Below are positions 40,041 through 51,003 of a stretch of 64,000 bases of DNA, one piece after another. The position numbers were made by a program, and so were the translations under genes. The notes under the pieces are model-generated. The model worked only from the letters and a program-made list of their open reading frames with translations. It did not search any database and was not told where the DNA came from. How positions within the stretch are numbered: position 1 is the stretch's first letter; each line of letters opens with the position of its first letter. Source of the stretch: Flavobacterium johnsoniae (GTDB lineage Bacteria; Bacteroidota; Bacteroidia; Flavobacteriales; Flavobacteriaceae); assembly GCF_030388325.1 (NCBI RefSeq), contig NZ_CP103794.1, forward strand, positions 2,790,001-2,854,000, written 5' to 3'.

Positions 40041-40720
40041 TTATCGGCTAATTTCTTTAAAGCGCGAACGTCTTTAAGCATAATTTTTTTTCCAACCAAT
40101 TCAATTAAACCTAATTTATTAAAATCAGATAATAGACGAATACAGCTTTCTGTTGCCGTACCGATAATTCCAGCTAATTCTTCTCTGGTCAATTGCACTT
40201 TTAATGTTTTATCAGTGTCTTCACCAAATTCATCGTGTAAATGAAGCAAAGTTTCGGCAAGTCGCTGTTTAACTGTTTTTTGAACTAAAGCAATTTTCTC
40301 ATTTTCAGATTCTTTCAAATCTTCGCAGACAGATTGCATCATATTCAAAGAAAACTGATTATTGCTGTTAAAGAAATTTATGATTTCTGTTTTCGGAATA
40401 AAACAAACTTCCATATCTGCAATTGCTTTTGCTGTCAAGTTTGCAGGCTCATTACTAATCATCGAGCGCTGTCCAAGAAGTTCACCAGATTTTACCAGTT
40501 TTACAATTTGATCTTTTCCGTTTGCGCTCAATTTAGAAAGTTTTCCAACGCCATCTTTTACACAAAAAACACCATTGGTAACTTCGCCTTCTTCAAAAAG
40601 CGCTTCACCTTTTTTAATTTTATAAGTGGTTTTGCTGTTTGCTAATTTTATAACTTCCTCTTTATTAAGTGCTTTTAAAGAGCTTAGCTGACGTACAATG
40701 CATTGATCACATTTATTCAT
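40037..40720 (-). CDS. FNR/CRP-family transcription regulator
   Basis: I start at the ATG at 40720 (MNKCDQCIVRQLSSL). The frame is open seven codons higher but overlaps the promoter. The 227-residue protein has a cNMP-binding-like domain (about 15-130) and a winged HTH with LTREELAGIIGTATESCIRLLSDF (about 168-192). The pair CDQC at 4-7 and later cysteines (about 48, 94, 125) could hold an Fe-S cluster, but the spacing differs from E. coli FNR. It is divergent from the cco cluster, whose promoters carry FNR-like boxes, and is the obvious regulator. Confidence 0.87.
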   Translation of the reverse strand: MNKCDQCIVRQLSSLKALNKEEVIKLANSKTTYKIKKGEALFEEGEVTNGVFCVKDGVGKLSKLSANGKDQIVKLVKSGELLGQRSMISNEPANLTAKAIADMEVCFIPKTEIINFFNSNNQFSLNMMQSVCEDLKESENEKIALVQKTVKQRLAETLLHLHDEFGEDTDKTLKVQLTREELAGIIGTATESCIRLLSDFNKLGLIELVGKKIMLKDVRALKKLADN

Positions 40721-40738: not shown

Positions 40739-40746
40739 CAAAAATA
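40739..40746 (-). promoter_or_regulatory. -7 element of the FNR-like gene
   Basis: CAAAAATA reads TATTTTTG on the minus strand, 19 bases before the ATG at 40720. No FNR-like box lies at the activating distance, so the gene is probably not self-activated. Confidence 0.57.
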
Positions 40747-40858: not shown

Positions 40859-40872
40859 ATGACAATTATCAT
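40859..40872 (+). promoter_or_regulatory. FNR-like box before ccoI
   Basis: ATGACAATTATCAT has the TGA(C/T)-N4-(A/G)TCA half-site layout of FNR boxes. Its centre is 36.5 bases from the end of GAAATTTG (40895-40902), a near match to TAnnTTTG. The same distance occurs at the other two boxes, which fits class II activation. Confidence 0.72.
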
Positions 40873-40922
40873 CTTAATAATTGTGCTTTAATTGGAAATT
40901 TGCGACAAATAAAAACAAGTTT

Positions 40923-43310
40923 ATGAGGGAGCAAAGTTGTTTTCATTGTGGTTTATCTATTGAACAAAATGAAGAAATTGAGTTTGATGATAAGAAGTTT
41001 TGTTGTACAGGCTGTAAAACGGTTTACGAAATTTTCAGCGTTAATGACTTGACCTCTTATTATGATTTTGAAAAATCGCCTGGTGCCACGCCGCTTGACA
41101 TCAAAGGCAAATACGACTTTTTAGAGAACGAATCGATACTTTCTAAAATTTTAGAATTTCAGGAAGGAAATACAGCAATTGTTTCTTTAAATATTCCACA
41201 CATTCATTGCAGTTCTTGTATTTGGATTTTAGAAAATCTAAACCGTCTTCAGTCAGGAATCAGTATTTCTCAGGTTAATTTCCATGAAAAGAAAGTTCGA
41301 ATTACGTTTAACTCAAATATAGTTTCTTTAAAAGAGATTGTTTATTTATTGAGTTCAATCGGCTATGAACCCTATATTAGTTTAGAAAATTATGGAAATG
41401 CAAAGGCAAAGGTTGACAGAAGTTTAACGTATAAGCTAGGAGTTGCTTTTTTCTGTTTTGGAAATATTATGCTGCTTTCATTTCCAGAATATTTCGAAAT
41501 GAAAGAATTTTGGCTAGATAGTTACAAACCATTTTTTAGACTGCTTATTTTTCTTTTAGCATTACCAAGTTTTTTATATTCGGCGAGTGGTTATTATGTT
41601 TCTGCTTATCATAGCATTAAAACTAGAATGCTTAATATTGATATTCCAATTGCATTAGGAATTATTGTAATGTTTATTCGAAGCACTTACGATATGTTAA
41701 TGGATCACGGACCTGGTTTTTTTGACAGTTTAGCCAGTTTAGTATTTTTCATGCTTCTTGGTAAAATGTTTCAGATTAAAACATATAGTTTTTTAAGTTT
41801 CGAAAGGGATTTTAAATCGTATTTTCCAATTGCTGTTACAAAAATAAATAAAGATACTTCAGAAGATAATGTTGCCATTTATGATGTTATAAAAGGCGAT
41901 CGTTTATTGATTCGCAACCAAGAACTTATTCCAGTTGATGGAATATTGATAAGTGAAAATGCCGAAATTGATTATAGTTTTGTGACTGGAGAAGCTGTTC
42001 CGATTACTAAAAAATCTGGTGATAAGATTTTTGCAGGAGGAAAACAAATTGGAAAAGTCATAGAAATGGAAGTTTTGCATTCGGTTTCACAAAGTTATTT
42101 GACTCAATTATGGAGTAACGAGATTTTTCAGAAGAAAGTAGATCAAAAACACAAAACCATAACAGATGCGATAAGCCGTTATTTTACACCAATACTATTA
42201 TTGATTGCCTTTGCTGGTTTTGGTTACTGGGTATCTATAGATGCAAATATTGCTTTTAATGTATTTACTGCGGTTTTAATTGTTGCTTGTCCTTGCGCGT
42301 TAGCATTAACGGCTCCATTTACTTTTGGTAATATTTTGAGAATTTTAGGAAAGAAGAAATTCTATCTGAAAAACGCCGTCGTGATAGAACAGCTGGCTAA
42401 AGTTGATACGATTGTTTTTGATAAAACGGGAACTATTACAACCAATAAAAAATCAAATATTCTTTACGAAGGAAATACTATTTCTGACGAGAATATCATT
42501 TTGATTAAGAATGTTTTACGAGGTTCAAATCATCCGTTAAGCCGCATGCTTTACGATTTTCTGCCAGAAACAAAACGCATTGCTGTAGAGAGTTTTCAAG
42601 AAATTACTGGAAAAGGAATTTTGGCTGTAATTGAAACTAAGGAAATTAAGATTGGTTCAGGTCAATTTGTACATGATATAGCTACAGATGGTTCGGAAAT
42701 TGAGAAAACAGCTTTACATATTAAAATAGGAGGGATTTATTTTGGAAAATTTACTTTTCAAAATCAGTATCGTGAAGGTTTAGAAAAACTCTTTTCGACC
42801 TTGAGTAAAGATTATAAGATTAAAGTACTTTCAGGAGATAATGACGGTGAAAGGGCGAATTTAGAAGCGATTCTTCCTAAAGGCACTGAATTGATTTTCA
42901 ACCAGAAACCTGAACAAAAACTCGAATTCATCAAAAAGCTTCAAGATCAAGGACAAAATGTAATGATGGTCGGCGATGGACTAAATGACGCTGGTGCATT
43001 AGCGCAAAGTAATGTTGGAATTTCTATTTCAGAGAATGTAAATGTGTTTTCTCCAGCATGTGATGCGATATTAGATGCTACAGAGTTTTCACGTTTAAAT
43101 TATTTTTTAAAACTTTCAAAAAAAGCAATTTTTATCATTAAGATGAGCTTTACTTTATCATTGCTTTACAACGTTGTTGGGCTAGCGTTTGCAGTCACAG
43201 GAAACCTTCAGCCTTTGGTTGCGGCAATCATAATGCCATTGAGTACAATCACTATTGTAAGTTTTGTAACTTTTATGTCTAACTATTTCAGTAACAGAAA
43301 TTTAGAATAG
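40923..43310 (+). CDS. ccoI: copper-translocating P-type ATPase for cbb3 oxidase assembly
   Basis: CcoI supplies copper for cbb3 oxidase. I start at the ATG at 40923 (MREQSCFHCGLSI). The 795-residue protein has an N-terminal cysteine-rich part (CFHCG, CCTGCKTVYEIF), an HMA domain with HCSSCIWILEN (about 95) and eight membrane helices. It also has the actuator TGEAVP, the ion site ACPCALAL (about 455), the phosphorylation site DKTGTITTN (D about 499) and GDGLNDAG. It leads the cco cluster. A gap of 114 bases with a second FNR-like box separates it from ccoS. Confidence 0.93.
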   Translation: MREQSCFHCGLSIEQNEEIEFDDKKFCCTGCKTVYEIFSVNDLTSYYDFEKSPGATPLDIKGKYDFLENESILSKILEFQEGNTAIVSLNIPHIHCSSCIWILENLNRLQSGISISQVNFHEKKVRITFNSNIVSLKEIVYLLSSIGYEPYISLENYGNAKAKVDRSLTYKLGVAFFCFGNIMLLSFPEYFEMKEFWLDSYKPFFRLLIFLLALPSFLYSASGYYVSAYHSIKTRMLNIDIPIALGIIVMFIRSTYDMLMDHGPGFFDSLASLVFFMLLGKMFQIKTYSFLSFERDFKSYFPIAVTKINKDTSEDNVAIYDVIKGDRLLIRNQELIPVDGILISENAEIDYSFVTGEAVPITKKSGDKIFAGGKQIGKVIEMEVLHSVSQSYLTQLWSNEIFQKKVDQKHKTITDAISRYFTPILLLIAFAGFGYWVSIDANIAFNVFTAVLIVACPCALALTAPFTFGNILRILGKKKFYLKNAVVIEQLAKVDTIVFDKTGTITTNKKSNILYEGNTISDENIILIKNVLRGSNHPLSRMLYDFLPETKRIAVESFQEITGKGILAVIETKEIKIGSGQFVHDIATDGSEIEKTALHIKIGGIYFGKFTFQNQYREGLEKLFSTLSKDYKIKVLSGDNDGERANLEAILPKGTELIFNQKPEQKLEFIKKLQDQGQNVMMVGDGLNDAGALAQSNVGISISENVNVFSPACDAILDATEFSRLNYFLKLSKKAIFIIKMSFTLSLLYNVVGLAFAVTGNLQPLVAAIIMPLSTITIVSFVTFMSNYFSNRNLE

Positions 43311-43362
43311 TTATAAATAATTCAAAAGATATTTTTTTTAATTTTATTATTCTTCTCTAAGC

Positions 43363-43376
43363 ATGATAATTATCAT
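43363..43376 (+). promoter_or_regulatory. FNR-like box before ccoS
   Basis: ATGATAATTATCAT is a perfect 14-base palindrome. Its centre is 36.5 bases from the end of the -7 element at 43399-43406. Confidence 0.78.
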
Positions 43377-43398
43377 ATTTTAAACGCCGATTGCCTAG

Positions 43399-43406
43399 TA
43401 ATTTTG
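43399..43406 (+). promoter_or_regulatory. -7 element of the ccoS-NOQPGH operon
   Basis: TAATTTTG lies 18 bases before the ccoS start. The usual -33 TTG is not seen, which fits a promoter that needs an activator. Confidence 0.68.
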
Positions 43407-43424
43407 TTAACATAAATTTACGGT

Positions 43425-43616
43425 ATGAGTGTTATTTATCTTTTAATTTCAGTAAGTATTTTCGTGGCAATTTGTTTCTTCATTGCTTTCATTATTGCTG
43501 TCAAATCTGGCCAGTACGACGACGATTATACACCTTCTGTCAGAATTCTTTTTGACGATGAGACCAAAATTATTTCCCAAAATAATAATTCACCAATAGA
43601 AGAAAAACAAGTATAA
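43425..43616 (+). CDS. ccoS: cbb3 oxidase maturation protein CcoS
   Basis: The 63-residue protein has one membrane helix (about 3-27) and the family motif AVKSGQYDDDYTP (about 29-41). CcoS is needed for cofactor insertion into cbb3 oxidase. The gene ends two bases before ccoNO. Confidence 0.9.
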   Translation: MSVIYLLISVSIFVAICFFIAFIIAVKSGQYDDDYTPSVRILFDDETKIISQNNNSPIEEKQV

Positions 43617-43618
43617 TT

Positions 43619-45802
43619 ATGGAAATGGAACAGTTTTATTACGACAACAAAATTGTAAAAAAATTCATTTATGCCACAATACTCTTTGGAGTTGTGGGTA
43701 TGTTAGTAGGGCTTACCTTGGCGGTAATGTACCTTTTTCCCAACATAACAGATGGGATTTCGTGGCTTAGTTACGGTCGTTTAAGACCATTACACACCAA
43801 TGCCGTTATTTTTGCCTTTGTGGGTAACGCATTCTTTGCCGGAATGTATTATTCTATGCAGAGATTATTAAAAGCCAGAATGTTTAGTGATTTTTTAAGT
43901 AACCTTCATTTCTGGGGCTGGCAGTTAATTATTGTTGCTGCAGCGATTACACTTCCGTTAGGTTATACTTCTTCTAAAGAATATGCAGAGCTGGAGTGGC
44001 CAATTGATATTGCAATCGCTTTAATTTGGGTTGTAATGGGGATTAACATGATTGGTACAATGTTACGCCGTAGAGAGCGCCATCTATATGTAGCAATCTG
44101 GTTTTATCTTGCAACATTTGTAACAGTAGCGGTACTGCACATTTTTAACAATATCGAAATTCCAGTTTCGGCTTTAAAAAGTTATTCTGTTTACGCTGGT
44201 GTTCAAGATGCACTTGTACAATGGTGGTACGGACACAATGCGGTGGCATTTTTCCTTACAACTCCGTTTTTAGGATTAATGTATTATTTCGTTCCTAAAA
44301 TTGCCAATAGACCTGTTTACTCATATAGATTATCTATTATTCACTTTTGGTCTTTAATCTTTATTTATATCTGGGCTGGGCCTCACCATTTATTATATTC
44401 TGCTTTGCCAAACTGGGCACAGAATTTAGGAGTTGCATTCTCAGTAATGTTAATTGCTCCATCTTGGGGAGGTATGATTAATGGACTTTTAACGCTGAGA
44501 GGTGCTTGGGATAAAGTTCGTGAAGAACCAGTTTTAAAATTCTTTGTAGTAGCAATTACAGGTTACGGAATGGCAACGTTTGAGGGACCAATGCTTTCTC
44601 TTAAAAATGTAAATGCTATCGCGCACTATACTGACTGGATCGTTGCTCACGTACACGTTGGAGCGTTGGCTTGGAATGGTTTTATGTCGTTTGCTATTAT
44701 TTATTGGTTAATTCCTCGAATGACAAAAACCGATTTGTTCTCTAAGAAATTAGCAAACTTCCATTTCTGGATTGGAACTTTAGGTATTATCGTTTATACA
44801 ATTCCATTATATGTAGCAGGTTTTCAACAAGCTTCTATGTGGAAACAGTTTAATCCAGACGGGACTTTAACTTATGGTAACTTCCTTGAAACCGTAACGG
44901 CTATTATGCCAATGTATTGGATGAGAGCTATCGGTGGTAGTTTATACTTAATTGGTATGCTGACATTGGTTTACAATATCATAATGACAGTTAAACAAGG
45001 TTCTCCAGTTGAAGACGAATTAGCTCAGGCTCCTGCTTTGCAAAGAATCAGCAGCGGAAGAGTGAGAGGGGAGAAATTCCACTCTTGGTTAGAAAGAAAA
45101 CCAATTCAATTAACAATTTTAGCGACGATTGCTATTTTAATTGGAGGTGTCATTCAGATTGTACCAACGATTATGGTGAAATCAAATATTCCGACAATTT
45201 CGAGTGTAAAACCATACACACCTTTAGAATTAGAAGGGCGTGATTTATACATCAGAGAAGGTTGTGTAGGATGTCACTCTCAATCAGTTCGTCCATTCAG
45301 AAGTGAAGTTGAGCGTTATGGTGTTCAATCTAAAGCGGGTGAATTTGTTTACGACCATCCATTCTTATGGGGATCAAAACGTACAGGTCCTGATTTATTG
45401 AGAGTTGGAGGAAAATACAACGACAACTGGCACTTTAACCATATGTGGAATCCACAAAGTACGTCTGCAGGATCTATTATGCCAGGTTATAAATGGCTTT
45501 TTGATAATAAACCAATGGATATTTCATTGACGCAAAAGAAAATGCAGGCCATGATTTCATTAGGTGTCCCATATTCTCCAGCAGATGTTGCAAATGCACA
45601 AAGAACTTTAAGAGAACAGGCGGTTAAAATTGAAAAAAGCTTAGAAAGTGATCCTGATTTTGTGAAAAGTTATGAAGACAGCAAGAAAAAAGCTGTTGCA
45701 AAAGGAGAGAAATTCATTCCGATGAATGAAAGAGAAATCGTTGCTTTGATCGCTTATATTCAAAGACTTGGTACTGATATTAAAGTAAAAGAAACTAAAT
45801 AA
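43619..45802 (+). CDS. ccoNO: cbb3 oxidase subunits I and II fused (CcoNO)
   Basis: The 727-residue protein joins the heme-copper catalytic subunit (about 1-490, 12 or more helices) to the membrane-bound monoheme cytochrome c subunit. Ligands visible include LHTNAVIF (heme b), WWYGHNAVAFFL and GPHHLLY (CuB) and AHVHVGALAWNG (heme b3 and heme b). The CcoO part follows with one helix and CVGCHSQSVRPF (about 548). It reduces oxygen at high affinity and pumps protons. In proteobacteria the two subunits are separate. The fusion is typical of Bacteroidota. Confidence 0.94.
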   Translation: MEMEQFYYDNKIVKKFIYATILFGVVGMLVGLTLAVMYLFPNITDGISWLSYGRLRPLHTNAVIFAFVGNAFFAGMYYSMQRLLKARMFSDFLSNLHFWGWQLIIVAAAITLPLGYTSSKEYAELEWPIDIAIALIWVVMGINMIGTMLRRRERHLYVAIWFYLATFVTVAVLHIFNNIEIPVSALKSYSVYAGVQDALVQWWYGHNAVAFFLTTPFLGLMYYFVPKIANRPVYSYRLSIIHFWSLIFIYIWAGPHHLLYSALPNWAQNLGVAFSVMLIAPSWGGMINGLLTLRGAWDKVREEPVLKFFVVAITGYGMATFEGPMLSLKNVNAIAHYTDWIVAHVHVGALAWNGFMSFAIIYWLIPRMTKTDLFSKKLANFHFWIGTLGIIVYTIPLYVAGFQQASMWKQFNPDGTLTYGNFLETVTAIMPMYWMRAIGGSLYLIGMLTLVYNIIMTVKQGSPVEDELAQAPALQRISSGRVRGEKFHSWLERKPIQLTILATIAILIGGVIQIVPTIMVKSNIPTISSVKPYTPLELEGRDLYIREGCVGCHSQSVRPFRSEVERYGVQSKAGEFVYDHPFLWGSKRTGPDLLRVGGKYNDNWHFNHMWNPQSTSAGSIMPGYKWLFDNKPMDISLTQKKMQAMISLGVPYSPADVANAQRTLREQAVKIEKSLESDPDFVKSYEDSKKKAVAKGEKFIPMNEREIVALIAYIQRLGTDIKVKETK

Positions 45803-45809
45803 CAGCATT

Positions 45810-46004
45810 ATGTTCGAACAAATAAAACACAATATGGAAACAATATCGGGTGTAGAATTATACCCGATTATTTCCCTCTTGATTTTCTTCTTCTTCTTTG
45901 TAGGATTGGGCATTTGGGTATTCTCTTATAGAAAAGAAAAAATTCAGGAAATGAGTAATATACCTTTAGATGAAGGACTTAGTGTAATTACAAAAGAGAT
46001 ATAA
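45810..46004 (+). CDS. ccoQ: CcoQ/FixQ-like small oxidase subunit
   Basis: The 64-residue protein has a single membrane helix (about 19-38) and a short charged tail (FSYRKEKIQEMSNIPLDEG). The position between ccoNO and ccoP (7 and 2 bases) identifies it. CcoQ stabilises the complex in other bacteria. Confidence 0.82.
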   Translation: MFEQIKHNMETISGVELYPIISLLIFFFFFVGLGIWVFSYRKEKIQEMSNIPLDEGLSVITKEI

Positions 46005-46006
46005 AA

Positions 46007-46948
46007 ATGAAAAAGTTTTTCCCAGTATATGTTAGATTACCGTTGATTTTTTTCATCGTATTTGGTTTGATGGAGTATTTTATTGACTCTGGAGATAAAC
46101 CAGGGTTTGTAAAATTTCCGATGGTTTCCGTTTTCTTGTTTGTCTTCTTATTCATTTTAATTGCTATTGAAATTACGCTTAGCGCTGTAAACCGTGTTAT
46201 GTATCAATTAATGACACCAGAAGAAAAAGCGAAAAAAGAATATGAAGAAAGTTTAAGCTTAAAAGAAAGCACATGGTTTAAAAACCTAATTCAAAGGCTA
46301 ACGAAAACATCACCAATTGAAAAAGAAGGCGAACTTTTAATGGATCATGATTATGATGGAATTAAAGAACTTGACAACAATTTACCGCCTTGGTGGGTGT
46401 ATTTGTTCTATATCTGTATCATTTTCGGTGTAATCTATGTTGTTCGTTACGATGTTCTTGGAGCTGACAATCAAGAAATGGAGTTGAAGAAAGAGATGGC
46501 TCAGGCAAAAATTGATGTTGAAGAATATCTAAAAACAGCACCAGATTTAATGGATGAAAAAACAGTTGTTCTACTTACCGATGAACCAAGTTTAGCAACC
46601 GGAAAAGAAATTTTTACAACAAACTGTGCGGCTTGCCACAGAGCAGATGGAGGGGGACAAATTGGACCAAACTTAACAGATGACCGCTGGATTTTAGGAG
46701 GAGGAATTAAAAATCTATTCCACACCATTACAAACGGAGGTAGAGACGGTAAAGGTATGATTTCGTGGAAAGGAACTCTTAAACCAAAAGAAATTCAGAA
46801 GGTTGCCAGTTATATTTTGTCTTTACAAGGAAGTAATCCGAAAGATCCAAAAGAACCAGAAGGAGAGGTTTGGGTAGATGAAAGCGCTCCAATAAACGAT
46901 GCAACAGCTGTTGCTCCGAAAACAGATACCACACAAGTTAAAAAATAA
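46007..46948 (+). CDS. ccoP: cbb3 oxidase subunit III (CcoP), monoheme
   Basis: The 313-residue protein has two membrane helices at the N-terminus (about 10-60) and the FixP_N domain with DGIKELDNNLPPWWVYLFY (about 117-135). One cytochrome c domain follows with CAACHRADGGGQIGPNL (about 207) and a distal methionine candidate in GKGMISWKG. Typical CcoP has two CxxCH motifs and this has only one. The acidic tail ends TDTTQVKK. It donates electrons from periplasmic cytochrome c. Confidence 0.92.
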   Translation: MKKFFPVYVRLPLIFFIVFGLMEYFIDSGDKPGFVKFPMVSVFLFVFLFILIAIEITLSAVNRVMYQLMTPEEKAKKEYEESLSLKESTWFKNLIQRLTKTSPIEKEGELLMDHDYDGIKELDNNLPPWWVYLFYICIIFGVIYVVRYDVLGADNQEMELKKEMAQAKIDVEEYLKTAPDLMDEKTVVLLTDEPSLATGKEIFTTNCAACHRADGGGQIGPNLTDDRWILGGGIKNLFHTITNGGRDGKGMISWKGTLKPKEIQKVASYILSLQGSNPKDPKEPEGEVWVDESAPINDATAVAPKTDTTQVKK

Positions 46949-46964
46949 TTAGAATACAAATATC

Positions 46965-48383
46965 ATGTCAAATTTACCAGACGAAGCGTTTAGAGATACC
47001 ATCGGAACTATAGATGAAGGTGGTAAACGGAAATTTATTTTCCCTAAAAAACCGTCTGGTAAATTTTATGATTATAGAAAGATTGTCAGTTACGTTTTAC
47101 TCGCAATTTTATTCATAAATCCGTTTATAAAAGTAAACGGAAACCAGTTTATGATGTTCAATATTTTAGAACGTCGTTTTAATATTTTTGGATTTCCTTT
47201 TTGGCCGCAGGATTTTTATCTTTTTGTGATTTCAATGCTTATCGGTGTTGTTTTCATACTTTTATTTACGGTTGTTTTTGGAAGGATTTTTTGCGGCTGG
47301 ATTTGCCCGCAAACCATTTTTCTTGAGCTGGTTTTTCGTCGTATCGAATATTGGATTGATGGAGATCGCGGTGCGCAAACTCGTTTGGCAAGGCAAGAAT
47401 GGAATGCAGAAAAAATTAGAAAAAGGTTCGTAAAATGGACTATTTTCTTTTTAATTTCTTTCCTTATTGCAAATGTCTTTTTAGCATATTTAGTTGGAAG
47501 CGACAAATTGTTTTTAATGATAGAACAAGGTCCAATTTCGCAGGCAAGTAATTTTATTGCACTTCTTATTTTTACAGGCGTTTTTTACTTCGTTTTTGTT
47601 TGGTTTCGCGAACAGGTTTGTATTATTGCCTGTCCGTACGGGAGATTGCAAGGAGTTCTTTTAGATAATAAATCGATTAATGTGGCTTATGATTTTGTGC
47701 GAGGAGAAAAAGAAGAAGGGCGTGCAAAATTCAAAAAAAATGAAGATCGAGCTTTAACAGGAAAAGGAGATTGTATAGACTGTCTTCAGTGTGTTCATGT
47801 ATGTCCGATGGGAATTGACATCAGAAACGGAACACAATTAGAATGTACAAATTGTACAGCTTGTATCGATGAATGCGATCATATTATGGAATCTGTTGGA
47901 TTACCAAAAGGTCTTATTCGATATGCTTCTGAAGACGAAATTGCTAAAAAAGAACCTTTCAAGTTTACAGCAAGAATGAAAGGGTATTCTGCAGTTCTCT
48001 TCATCTTACTAAGCATTTTTGTCGGAATGCTATTTTTAAGAACAGATGTTCAAGCAGTTGTTTTACGTTTACCTGGGCAGTTATTTCAGCATAATGGAGA
48101 TAAAATCAGTAATGTTTACACTTATAAAATTGTAAACAAAACAATGAAAGATTACAATGATATTCATTTTGGATTGATCGATCAAAAGGGAACAATTAAA
48201 AATGTTGGGAAACAGCATTTTAAAGTTGCTAAAGAAGGAATTTCTCAAGGAACATTATTTATAGAAATCAATGAAGTTCTCTTAGAAAGCGATAAAACAA
48301 AAGTCAAAATAGGAGTTTATAATGGTTCTGAACTCATAGAAACTACAACAACAAATTTCTTAGGACCACGCAGTTTTAATTAA
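46965..48383 (+). CDS. ccoG: cytochrome c oxidase accessory protein CcoG
   Basis: The 472-residue membrane protein has five or so helices and the cysteine signatures CGWICPQTIF and CIIACPYGR. A two-cluster ferredoxin domain (CIDCLQCVHVCPMG and CTNCTACIDECDHIM, about 266-310) follows, then a C-terminal immunoglobulin-like domain (about 370-472). CcoG is proposed to reduce copper for CcoI. The gene lies 16 bases after ccoP in the same operon. Confidence 0.92.
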   Translation: MSNLPDEAFRDTIGTIDEGGKRKFIFPKKPSGKFYDYRKIVSYVLLAILFINPFIKVNGNQFMMFNILERRFNIFGFPFWPQDFYLFVISMLIGVVFILLFTVVFGRIFCGWICPQTIFLELVFRRIEYWIDGDRGAQTRLARQEWNAEKIRKRFVKWTIFFLISFLIANVFLAYLVGSDKLFLMIEQGPISQASNFIALLIFTGVFYFVFVWFREQVCIIACPYGRLQGVLLDNKSINVAYDFVRGEKEEGRAKFKKNEDRALTGKGDCIDCLQCVHVCPMGIDIRNGTQLECTNCTACIDECDHIMESVGLPKGLIRYASEDEIAKKEPFKFTARMKGYSAVLFILLSIFVGMLFLRTDVQAVVLRLPGQLFQHNGDKISNVYTYKIVNKTMKDYNDIHFGLIDQKGTIKNVGKQHFKVAKEGISQGTLFIEINEVLLESDKTKVKIGVYNGSELIETTTTNFLGPRSFN

Positions 48384-48394
48384 AATATATTATT

Positions 48395-48847
48395 ATGAAA
48401 ATTAATTGGGGAACAGGAATAGTCATTGCATTCGGATTGTTTATGACATTTATTTTATATTTTGTTTTTGAAGTGCAATCAAATTCTAAATACGATAATG
48501 ATTTGGTTGTCGAAGAATATTATAAACATGACACGCACTTTCAGGAAGAAATGGCGAGAATTCAAAATGCGCATGATTTACAGCATAAACCGTCAATAAA
48601 ATATACAGAGAATAACGGTGTATCCGTAACTTTTCCTGCTGGATTCGAAAGCGAAAAAGTAAAAGGAAATATTTTGTTATACAGACCTTCAAATAAAAAG
48701 TTTGATTTTAATACTCAGATAGCTTTGACCAATTCTTCATTGATAATTCCGCAGAAAAAACTAATTAAAGGACGCTGGGATGTTAATATGGAATGGCAGT
48801 ACGAAGGCAAAAAATATTTAACTAAAGAAGTGATTTACGTAAACTAA
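48395..48847 (+). CDS. ccoH: FixH/CcoH family protein
   Basis: The 150-residue protein has one N-terminal membrane helix (about 6-27) and a periplasmic beta domain ending KGRWDVNMEWQYEGKKYLTKE, the FixH signature. CcoH aids cbb3 assembly. It begins 11 bases after ccoG. Confidence 0.88.
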   Translation: MKINWGTGIVIAFGLFMTFILYFVFEVQSNSKYDNDLVVEEYYKHDTHFQEEMARIQNAHDLQHKPSIKYTENNGVSVTFPAGFESEKVKGNILLYRPSNKKFDFNTQIALTNSSLIIPQKKLIKGRWDVNMEWQYEGKKYLTKEVIYVN

Positions 48848-48854
48848 TCTCAAA

Positions 48855-49556
48855 ATGTTATTCTCAGCATTCTTTTTAGGTCTTATCAGTAGTCTGCATT
48901 GCGTTGGAATGTGCGGACCAATTGCTATGATGCTTCCTGTAGACAGGCAAAATGAAGCAAAAAAGATAACGCAGATCATGACATATCATTTCGGTCGTTT
49001 GGCGGCTTACGCTACAATCGGATTAATTTTTGGATTATTAGGAAGAGGCTTTTTTCTTGCCGGATTACAGCAAAAAATGTCCATAATAATTGGTATAATT
49101 ATGATTGTTGTGGTTTTAATTCCAGAGAAGAGATTTGCGAATTATAATTTTTCAAAACCTGTTTACAAAATCATTTCAAAAATCAAATCAAATTTAGGAA
49201 GCCAGTTTAAAAACAAAAGTTATAAATCTCTTTTTACAATTGGTTTGTTAAATGGCTTTTTACCATGCGGAATGGTTTACGTTGCTTTATTTGGAGCAAT
49301 TGCAATGCAGAGCGCTAGTTTTGGTGTTCTTTATATGCTTTTATTTGGAATAGGAACGATACCGTTGATGACAGTTGTAGTTTATGTGAATTCATTGCTA
49401 AAATTGCCTTTCAGAAACAAAATCCAAAAGGCAATTCCGTATGTAGCTGTAATTATTGGAGTCTTATTTATTCTCAGAGGATTAGGACTTGGAATTCCTT
49501 ATGTTTCACCATCTAATATGAGTTTATTTGTGCAACAGACTCCAAATTGTCATTAA
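48855..49556 (+). CDS. TauE/SafE-like (heavy-metal transport) membrane protein
   Basis: The 233-residue protein has six helices and the motif SSLHCVGMCGPIAMMLP (about 11-27), repeated as NGFLPCGMVYVALFGA (about 129). This defines the SafE/HMA-type group often found at the end of cco operons (called CcoS or SenC-associated in some databases). It probably exports or shuttles copper during oxidase assembly, inferred from position. It starts eight bases after ccoH. Confidence 0.86.
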   Translation: MLFSAFFLGLISSLHCVGMCGPIAMMLPVDRQNEAKKITQIMTYHFGRLAAYATIGLIFGLLGRGFFLAGLQQKMSIIIGIIMIVVVLIPEKRFANYNFSKPVYKIISKIKSNLGSQFKNKSYKSLFTIGLLNGFLPCGMVYVALFGAIAMQSASFGVLYMLLFGIGTIPLMTVVVYVNSLLKLPFRNKIQKAIPYVAVIIGVLFILRGLGLGIPYVSPSNMSLFVQQTPNCH

Positions 49557-49573
49557 AAATATATCTTACTTAA

Positions 49574-50938
49574 TTATACAGTCATCGAAAACAGATTTGT
49601 TTCCGGTGACTTTCTTTTTAGATGCAAGTCAAAAGCCATGCAGATGTTACGTACAAAAGGTCTTCCTTCTTCTGTAATTTTAATTGAATTTTCTTCAATG
49701 ACAATTAAACCATCATTTTCTATTTCTTTTAAAGCAATTAAAACTTCAGGAAGTTCTTGAAAATTTAGATATTCTTTTGTCCAAGAAGTTTCTAGTTCAC
49801 AAGTTAAATTCAAAATATGTTTTCTGATAATTAAATCTTCTTTATTTAAAATATGCCCTTTTACGACAGGAAGTTTATCCCATTCTAATAATTGATAATA
49901 ATCTTCTAGATTTTTAGTGTTTTGAGCAAAACTATACCAGCTGTCACTGATGGAAGAAACTCCCAAACCAATCATAACTTGTGTTTTAGAAGCACTATAT
50001 CCCATAAAATTTCTGTGTAAATTACCATTATGAGCTGCTTTAAATAAACTATCTGTTTCTAAAGCAAAATGATCCATTCCTATTTCATGATAACCATTTT
50101 GTGAAAGCAGTTTTTTCCCTATTTCATAAAGCTGTCTTTTTTCGGCATCTTTCGGAAGATTTTCTTCATTAAAACCGCGTTGTCCGTTGCCCTTTATCCA
50201 AGGTACATGAGCATAGCTGTAAAAAGCTAATCGATCTGGTTTTAAAGAATTTGTTTTTTCAACTGTATCAATAACATCTTCAATAGTTTGAAATGGAAGT
50301 CCGAAAATAATATCGTGACCAATAGAAGTATAACCAATTTCTTTTGCCCAAAAAGTCACTTTGGCAACATTATGAAACGGCTGAATTCTATTAATAGCTT
50401 TTTGAACAGTAGCAGAATAATCCTGAACACCAAAACTTACTCGGCGAAAGCCCAAATCATATAATTTTTTTAGCTGTTCGTGAGTCGTATTATTTGGATG
50501 TCCTTCAAAACTAAATTCATGATTTTCTGCTTTTACAGCATAGCTGAAAATTCCAGTGATCAGCAATTCCAGATTTTCTTTAGAAAAGAAAGTTGGAGTT
50601 CCTCCGCCTAAATGTATTTCTTTAATAATAGGTTTTTCTGGAAGTATTTTGCAATATAAATGCCATTCTTTTAAAAGCGCTTTAATATAAGTTTCTTCAA
50701 CAGAATGGTTTTTAGTAATGCGTTTATTGCATCCGCAAAAGGTACACATGCTTTCGCAGAAAGGCAGATGAATGTATAAACTAATTCCGTTTTTTGAATT
50801 GCTTTCTGAGAATGATTTTTGCAAAGAAGTGATCCATTTTTCAGTTGTGAAATCAGCTTCATTCCAATACGGAACTGTCGGATAGCTTGTATATCTTGGG
50901 CCTGGAACATTGTACTTTTGTGTCAAAGAGATTTTCAT
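49574..50938 (-). CDS. hemN: oxygen-independent coproporphyrinogen III dehydrogenase
   Basis: HemN forms protoporphyrinogen IX anaerobically. The 454-residue radical SAM enzyme has PGPRYTSYPT (about 12-21) and the cluster motif C61-x3-C65-x2-C68-x-C70, with a HemN-type extra cysteine at C70. GGGTPTFF, HPNNTT and GFRRVSFGVQDYS also match. The promoter carries an FNR-like box, so heme synthesis switches with the cbb3 oxidase. It is convergent with the cco operon. Confidence 0.94.
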   Translation of the reverse strand: MKISLTQKYNVPGPRYTSYPTVPYWNEADFTTEKWITSLQKSFSESNSKNGISLYIHLPFCESMCTFCGCNKRITKNHSVEETYIKALLKEWHLYCKILPEKPIIKEIHLGGGTPTFFSKENLELLITGIFSYAVKAENHEFSFEGHPNNTTHEQLKKLYDLGFRRVSFGVQDYSATVQKAINRIQPFHNVAKVTFWAKEIGYTSIGHDIIFGLPFQTIEDVIDTVEKTNSLKPDRLAFYSYAHVPWIKGNGQRGFNEENLPKDAEKRQLYEIGKKLLSQNGYHEIGMDHFALETDSLFKAAHNGNLHRNFMGYSASKTQVMIGLGVSSISDSWYSFAQNTKNLEDYYQLLEWDKLPVVKGHILNKEDLIIRKHILNLTCELETSWTKEYLNFQELPEVLIALKEIENDGLIVIEENSIKITEEGRPFVRNICMAFDLHLKRKSPETNLFSMTV

Positions 50939-50959
50939 AATGACGGATTTAGTTTACAT

Positions 50960-50967
50960 CAAAATTA
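50960..50967 (-). promoter_or_regulatory. -7 element of hemN
   Basis: CAAAATTA reads TAATTTTG on the minus strand, 21 bases before the start at 50938. Confidence 0.68.
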
Positions 50968-50989
50968 AAACTTCAACGACGGAGATAAA

Positions 50990-51003
50990 ATGACAAATAT
51001 CAT
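50990..51003 (-). promoter_or_regulatory. FNR-like box before hemN
   Basis: ATGACAAATATCAT (reverse ATGATATTTGTCAT) matches the boxes before ccoI and ccoS. Its centre is again 36.5 bases from the end of the -7 element. Confidence 0.75.

Follow-up and report, generated by a model that had tools for sequence, protein, structure and literature searches.

FNR-like boxes at a fixed distance from the -7 element at the cbb3 oxidase locus of Flavobacterium johnsoniae and its relatives

Introduction

FNR of the Escherichia coli type reads the sequence TTGAT-N4-ATCAA with a recognition helix of the form E-x-x-S-R, and hemN is among the targets of FnrN, FnrL, FixK and ANR in Proteobacteria. In the literature on these proteobacterial regulators, FNR-type control extends to the operons of the cbb3 oxidase (ccoNOQP, fixNOQP), and negative autoregulation exists in FixK2 (PMC9104804, available text). 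Bacillus Fnr holds its cluster with ligands unlike those of E. coli, namely three C-terminal cysteines and an aspartate in B. subtilis (PMC3520743, available text). Here, we analysed a stretch of 64,000 nucleotides of Flavobacterium johnsoniae (contig NZ_CP103794.1, positions 2,790,001 to 2,854,000; the window), part of a single-contig genome of 5.32 Mb, in which three FNR-like boxes accompany a cbb3 oxidase locus. The genes, assigned to families with Pfam and NCBIfam, run in the order fnr-like Crp/Fnr gene (minus strand), ccoI, ccoS, ccoNO fusion, ccoP, ccoG, ccoH and a DsbD_2-type gene (plus strand), then hemN (minus strand; Table 1).

We consider it probable that these boxes are class II operators of a Crp/Fnr-type activator, likeliest the one encoded by the neighbouring fnr-like gene, acting as a low-oxygen Fe-S switch. 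From the sequences we infer that a dimer of the activator would bind each box, centred at -41.5 in promoters with the Bacteroidota -7 element and no TTG at -33. At low oxygen it would carry an Fe-S cluster on C4, C7, C106 and probably C53, and would induce the CcoI ATPase together with the cbb3 oxidase operon and the oxygen-independent route to heme. The box shared by fnr and ccoI also extends over the fnr promoter in about half of the relatives, and there the activator would repress its own gene; this overlap is gone in the window's clade.

The system resembles E. coli and Aliivibrio fischeri FNR (PDB 5CVR and kin) in its Crp fold, the N-terminal C-x2-C, the cysteine of a beta-roll VC-x-IP, the TGAT-N4-ATCA core, the class II position at -41.5 and the oxidase and heme targets. 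Unlike FNR, it has the third N-terminal cysteine replaced, an invariant C53 that falls on an FNR alanine, an E-x-x-I-R helix, and TAnnTTTG promoters rather than a sigma-70 -10 element. It also sets itself apart from the proteobacterial FnrN, FnrL, FixK and ANR systems by phylum and -10 element, by a box that belongs to ccoI itself and by a regulator gene divergent from ccoI. Its candidate ligands, a pair of cysteines at the N-terminus and a pair on the beta-roll, also differ from those of Bacillus Fnr. The outer base of the box is A or C here, not what we take to be the T of the FNR consensus. The class of mechanism is known, and what a specialist would not expect is the cysteine set, the deviation of the ccoI promoter, the sliding autoregulation and the exchange of sensors.

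Results

Boxes and -7 elements in the window and its genome

A sequence-only reading of the window had reported three FNR-like boxes, two on the plus strand and one on the minus strand, at an identical distance from their -7 elements. When the sequence was re-read, all three stood at those coordinates and strands, and their centres (40865.5, 43369.5 and 50996.5) each lay 36.5 bases from the last G of the -7 element, an arrangement called gap 23 below. The partners at this distance are GAAATTTG before ccoI and TAATTTTG before both ccoS and hemN. The reported absence of a TTG at -33 of the ccoS and hemN promoters was likewise found, and the ccoI promoter has none at -33 either. The -7 elements needed an amendment: those of ccoS and hemN are of consensus form, but the ccoI element is a conserved variant, VAnnTTTG.

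The exact box pattern occurs at four sites in the 5.32 Mb, each with a -7-like octamer at the same gap on one strand (TAATTTTG twice, GAAATTTG and TAAATTTA); the fourth site precedes the gene for a protein of 352 amino acids (aa), and its TAAATTTA appears when the strand complementary to the exact match is read. A looser pattern, TGAYN4RTCA-N{10,34}-TANNTTTG, which allows any gap from 10 to 34, gave 26 matches in the same genome. Nine of them were at gap 23 and five at gap 24, with at most two at each of the other 23 gaps (binomial 4e-7 for gap 23 alone, equal gaps assumed). Spacing elsewhere was therefore not random, gap 23 being the peak both in this genome and in 197 genomes of the class. 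At gap 23 the targets are ccoS, hemN and genes for UspA, a YceI protein, a VF530-family protein, a polyprenyl synthetase, a Cu nitrite reductase (TIGR02376, above cut-off), a NarK-like MFS transporter (below the NCBIfam cut-off) and a 189-aa cNMP-binding protein. Those at gap 24 are genes for a U32/UbiU-like protein (below the UbiU cut-off), a bacterial globin and a 95-aa protein without family, plus two sites with no open reading frame within 300 bases. Some targets of the loose pattern surely are chance matches or belong to paralogues.

Spacing across the class and at orthologous promoters

Box plus TAnnTTTG at gap 23 was matched 677 times, in 162 of the 197 class genomes, against 59 matches in 49 genomes for a control gap 5 bases shorter (gap 18). 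A backward-pattern control at gap 23 gave 16 matches; it flatters the result, TAnnTTTG itself being a promoter element, hence the gap-18 control. Genomes with a Crp-like match (n = 171) averaged 3.87 matches and those without (n = 26) 0.58, kinship uncorrected.

Orthologous promoters were compared in 80 related cbb3 loci, the best 80 of at least 591 candidates, whose counts are not independent as the loci are related. A box was present upstream of 62 of 76 ccoS genes, and 52 of the 62 boxes had TAnnTTTR at gap 23 (TAnnTTTG in 42, TAnnTTTA in 10); three others had TAnnTTTG at gap 22 and seven had neither. Upstream of hemN the box was found in 21 of 33 genes, with TAnnTTTG at gap 23 in all 21 (35 genes found, 34 examined after skipping matches with a query start beyond 60, and row L096 dropped, its start being off the contig). 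For ccoI, where 66 genes were found and 62 examined under the same rule, 52 of the 62 regions had a box, one of them an artefact (L107, distance void with the start off the contig). Genera with gap 23 include Flavobacterium, Tenacibaculum, Winogradskyella, Chryseobacterium, Psychroflexus and Aquimarina. A chance origin of the boxes is ruled out by these spacing peaks in the window's own genome, in the 197 genomes and at orthologous promoters.

Two variations among the ccoS promoters may be recorded. The -7 element reads TAnnTTTA, with A at -5 and gap 23, in L055, L058, L061, L062, L068, L069, L071, L080, L082 and L088. Tandem boxes stand 22 bp apart in L102, L109 and L117 and 36 bp apart in L106, the downstream box being at -41.5.

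Promoter geometry

The sigma-A consensus TAnnTTTG of F. psychrophilum spans -12 to -5 (PMC9723704, available text). Because its G is at -5 and the box centre lies 36.5 bases upstream, the centre falls at -41.5; the class II placement suggested from the sequence alone thus agrees with the measured distance and the published coordinates, and is supported for the window's organism with starts carried over from F. psychrophilum. Promoters with nAnnTTTG at gap 23 only (43 ccoS, 20 hemN and 39 ccoI) were aligned. They share a symmetric 14-mer at -48 to -35 with the core TGAY-N4-RTCA, the whole box being ATGAY-N4-RTCAT with A or C as outer base. The -33 TTG consensus was not found in these three sets, which have a T-rich segment at -33 to -30 instead. 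Two marks of a class II promoter are seen, a conserved box centre at -41.5 and a missing upstream core element (the -33 TTG).

The ccoI promoters depart from the others. Among 49 rows (query start at most 30, box within 110 bases, L051 left out as its second box had been taken), nAnnTTTG stood at gap 23 in 38 and TAnnTTTG in three. In the alignment, where the base at -12 was left free, T occupied it in 3 of 39 ccoI promoters versus 43 of 43 ccoS and 20 of 20 hemN promoters. We suggest that the full -7 consensus is avoided at ccoI so that the ATPase would be made only with the activator.

Between the -7 element and the start codon, many ccoI leaders of L051-L130 contain AGGTA...GAGCAAAT, which is missing from the window. 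Although it looked like an element of its own, it may be start-codon context, which a similar string elsewhere in the same loci resembles.

The FNR-like regulator

The fnr-like protein comprises a cNMP_binding beta-roll (66.6 bits) and an HTH_Crp_2 domain (63.0 bits; both Pfam). The sequence-only reading had called it an FNR-like neighbour with an N-terminal CxxC. The divergent gene does encode C4-x2-C7, but one ligand cysteine of FNR is absent, and the comparison supports a variant of FNR rather than plain FNR. In the alignment with structures of A. fischeri FNR, each of C4, C7 and C106 matches a cysteine; the third N-terminal cysteine of FNR matches a non-cysteine residue, and C53 matches alanine. 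We take the FNR cysteines aligned with C4, C7 and C106 to be C20, C23 and C122, which are presumably cluster ligands. The E. coli FNR pattern of C-x2-C-x5-C plus a beta-roll cysteine was not found in the fnr-like protein. An alignment of 34 rows, made up of the window's protein and 33 of the 39 locus proteins, leaves C4, C7, C53 and C106 as the only invariant cysteines. All four are kept in 30 of 30 class-level rows (L138-L167, L138 being the window's gene), the best 30 of 171 genomes with a match; there the third FNR ligand position is Ser, Thr or Asn (Ser13 in the window). The recognition helix is E-x-x-I-R (E191, I194, R195), not the E-x-x-S-R of E. coli FNR.

Which protein reads the box, and what it senses

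Synteny, overlap of the box with the fnr promoter and the patchy occurrence of a rival paralogue, L133, favour the earlier proposal of a regulon under the adjacent FNR-like gene, with the correction that some genomes keep the box without FNR. Several findings weigh against the adjacent product as reader, or against its four-cysteine cluster. Among the 59 loci that contain ccoI and extend at least 1.5 kb past it, nine have the ccoS promoter without an adjacent four-cysteine FNR and ten show the reverse (Fisher p = 0.016); of those ten, seven have TAnnTTTA at gap 23, L098 has TTAATTTG, and no box is present in L105 or L119. Gene adjacency thus points weakly to the identity of the regulator, and a comparison of recognition helices and a test of L133 were added for this reason. 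The helices favour the proposal: in 47 loci with both a Crp-like protein and ccoS, the ccoS box accompanies E-x-x-I-R in 39 of 42 cases and E-x-x-S-R in none of five. All five E-x-x-S-R rows are Sphingobacteriales, which brings the contrast close to one event, and two of them (L115, L130) have the box and TAnnTTTG at gap 23 before another gene. The window's genome holds seven HTH_Crp_2 matches, six besides the fnr-like gene; L137, below cut-off, looks Lrp-like. Paralogues L133 and L136 share the E-x-x-I-R helix, and L133 (L133:1474-2175, contig near 4600500) has its own C-x2-C-x4-C and also VLC. The NCBIfam Fnr model NF008365 matches the fnr-like protein at 83 bits, far from its cut-off of 228, though it is still the best NCBIfam match. 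Finally, an extra cysteine 9 or 11 residues past C7 is present in 20 of 29 homologues at the class level, though no row among those nearest the window (L139-L143) has it; outside Flavobacterium a third N-terminal ligand may therefore exist, and C53 need not be a ligand.

Another Crp/Fnr paralogue, controlled by NO, redox state or a kinase, might read the box, the fnr-like gene being a bystander or co-reader. We hold this to be quite unlikely. It draws on the six other HTH_Crp_2 matches of the genome, L133 and L136 with E-x-x-I-R among them, and on Psychroflexus, Aequorivita and Aquimarina, which keep box and spacing, have no detected four-cysteine FNR and possess E-x-x-I-R fusions of a receiver to a Crp-type output (REC-CRP); the Cu nitrite reductase and the NarK-like gene would also fit an NO or nitrite signal. 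Yet a close relative of L133 (66-80% identity), one of the two E-x-x-I-R paralogues, occurs in just 2 of 20 genomes, all 20 with the ccoS box, and the other 18 have L133 matches of 24-32% only or, in one genome, none; L133 therefore cannot be the general reader. In 19 of 40 rows, moreover, the box lies over the promoter of the fnr-like gene itself, and the remaining Crp-type frames of the window's genome, at 156-250 aa, are too short for REC-CRP.

If the fnr-like product is the reader, its invariant cysteines could still form a thiol/disulfide switch instead of binding an Fe-S cluster, with redox rather than direct oxygen sensing; such a switch seems unlikely to us. The third FNR ligand position is not cysteine, and a C53-C106 disulfide would be possible, the two residues presumably lying on neighbouring strands of the Crp beta-roll. 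Against it, C4-x2-C7 and C106 align with the three FNR cysteines that we take to be ligands, and exactly four cysteines are invariant in the 34 aligned rows. Ligand sets unlike that of E. coli are also known, as in the B. subtilis protein (PMC3520743, available text). A reading of the boxes as sites for Fur, or as AT-rich palindromes arisen by chance, is extremely improbable. ATGATAATTATCAT superficially resembles part of the Fur consensus, but its half-sites are arranged as TGAT-N4-ATCA, not as the 7-1-7 of Fur, and the distance to the -7 element holds constant from one genus to the next, with a genome-wide peak. Fur sites were ruled out on the half-site spacing.

REC-CRP fusions and loci without the four-cysteine FNR

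Nine loci have the ccoS promoter and no four-cysteine FNR within the fetched stretch. Their genomes and those of eight other loci were searched for the absent protein, which was found elsewhere in one of the nine (the genome of L102). Five of the nine (L077, L090, L096, L109, L117) have REC-CRP fusions, all with E-x-x-I-R; the genome of L089 has a comparable 376-aa frame with a match, a candidate fusion, and that of L099 a fragment. No REC-CRP match was found in the genome of L106; some of the genomes are metagenome-assembled genomes (MAGs), in which absence is not proof. Of the nine FNR-less loci, only L090 has the fusion at the cbb3 locus itself. In some genomes without the four-cysteine FNR, the fusion apparently reads the box. 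The two can coexist: in Mariniflexile L074 they share a locus, and possible REC-CRP fusions, matches in frames of 353-363 aa, occur in four genomes that have the FNR (L057, L064, L069, L093). In loci of this group, a gap-23 box also precedes hemN (L077, L089) and UspA (L074, L090), and a box at gap 24 precedes the Aquimarina kinase gene.

Full-length REC-CRP matches occur in 9 of the 80 cbb3 loci, each beside an open reading frame with a kinase H-box motif. Pfam found PAS, HisKA and HATPase_c in five of the kinases, and two fusions were also checked. The arrangement resembles the FixL-FixJ-FixK system of rhizobia in placing a PAS kinase and a receiver-linked Crp output beside cbb3 and heme genes. 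Unlike that system, receiver and Crp form one polypeptide at the fusion loci, and the matches in the window's genome include no fusion. The REC-cNMP-HTH_Crp fusion is possibly FixJ and FixK in one protein.

Kinase and REC-cNMP-HTH_Crp fusion lie together inside the cbb3 locus at L074:4751-7041 and L090:18321-20608 and in L110, L115, L116, L120, L121, L124 and L130.

Position of the box at the fnr promoter

In the 40 four-cysteine rows, the box between fnr and ccoI takes several positions relative to the fnr promoter. Its centre falls on the -33 region, between -27.5 and -32.5, in 19 rows, at -41.5 in four, at -52.5 in three and at -130.5 to -131.5 in three; seven more have a box without TAnnTTTG at those gaps, and four have no box. 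The far rows are the window (box centre at -131.5 from the inferred start), F. circumlabens and F. shii. In the protein tree this far group forms one clade (100/100), F. circumlabens and F. shii being the fnr rows nearest to the window. The four rows at -41.5 lie inside one clade of eight rows (100/100) with Maribacter, Arenibacter, Croceivirga and Nonlabens, where the other rows differ and three changes are needed. A box over the fnr -33 region is predicted to cause autorepression and a box at -41.5 of fnr to cause activation.

Discussion

In F. psychrophilum, oxygen limitation strongly induces the cbb3 oxidase and heme-biosynthesis enzymes, and the word fnr does not occur in the main text of that paper (PMC9723704). 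Reading the window's regulator as a four-cysteine oxygen sensor differs from the MalR-like carbon sensing to which Crp/Fnr homologues of a Flavobacteriales MAG were assigned (PMC8510549, available text). PMC1274295 treats HcpR in Bacteroides, and the word cbb3 is absent from its available text. No description of the box, the regulator or the cysteine set in Bacteroidota was found in the open-licence literature, most subscription papers being outside the scope of the search.

Beyond the window, we tentatively propose a Bacteroidota subtype of Fe-S FNR (C4, C7, C53, C106) in which one ligand would have shifted to a beta-strand. Its -41.5 operator would be an old, fixed cis code open to the exchange of sensors: in genera without the FNR, a PAS-kinase/REC-CRP system with an identical E-x-x-I-R helix would read it, the box staying in place. 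Control of fnr itself would flip between repression and activation as its -7 element slides along one shared box. A class-wide rule that centres the box 36.5 bases upstream of the G in TAnnTTTG would make low-oxygen regulons readable from sequence, and the placement of activators relative to the unusual Bacteroidota -7 element is little described in the literature searched. For biochemistry, the regulator is a candidate sensor of oxygen whose cysteine set is unusual. The fnr promoters form a natural series of relations between one box and the gene of its own regulator, from overlap through putative activation to indifference.

Features of the locus and other Crp-type boxes

Coordinates of the locus are collected in Table 1. 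For the fnr-like gene the start was taken as the ATG at 40720, not the TTG at 40741.

Table 1. Genes, boxes and -7 elements of the cbb3 oxidase locus, in window coordinates
Feature	Coordinates	Strand	Basis
fnr-like Crp/Fnr regulator, 227 aa	40037..40720	-	Pfam, alignments; recognition helix TESCIR
-7 element TATTTTTG of fnr-like gene	40739..40746	-	sequence
FNR-like box ATGACAATTATCAT between ccoI (+) and divergent fnr-like gene (-)	40859..40872	+	sequence; related loci
Variant -7 element GAAATTTG of ccoI, VAnnTTTG type, first T avoided	40895..40902	+	sequence; promoter alignment
ccoI, P-type ATPase of cbb3 assembly type, 795 aa	40923..43310	+	Pfam E1-E2_ATPase, Hydrolase, ATPase-cat_bd; cbb3 cluster position
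FNR-like box ATGATAATTATCAT, perfect palindrome, before ccoS	43363..43376	+	sequence; related loci
-7 element TAATTTTG of ccoS	43399..43406	+	sequence
ccoS (FixS)	43425..43616	+	Pfam FixS
ccoNO fusion, cbb3 catalytic and mono-heme subunits	43619..45802	+	Pfam COX1 and FixO
ccoP	46007..46948	+	Pfam FixP_N, Cytochrome_CBB3
ccoG (FixG), ccoH (FixH), DsbD_2-type membrane protein	46965..49556	+	Pfam
hemN, oxygen-independent coproporphyrinogen III oxidase	49574..50938	-	NCBIfam TIGR00538, 425.7 bits, cut-off 324.95
-7 element TAATTTTG of hemN	50960..50967	-	sequence
FNR-like box ATGATATTTGTCAT of hemN	50990..51003	-	sequence

Two other groups of boxes were seen elsewhere in the genome. At 3223498-3223573 (L038/L039) a TGAC-N4-GTCA box stands before the gene for the 189-aa cNMP-binding protein (gap 23) and a divergent gene for a 198-aa protein (gap 25); this pair may make up a small regulon under a Crp paralogue. 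TGATTTAAATCA boxes are repeated at L040, L041 and L043 (3372034-3372115, 3392671), where one precedes a 227-aa Crp-like gene; they are perhaps the site of another Crp paralogue.

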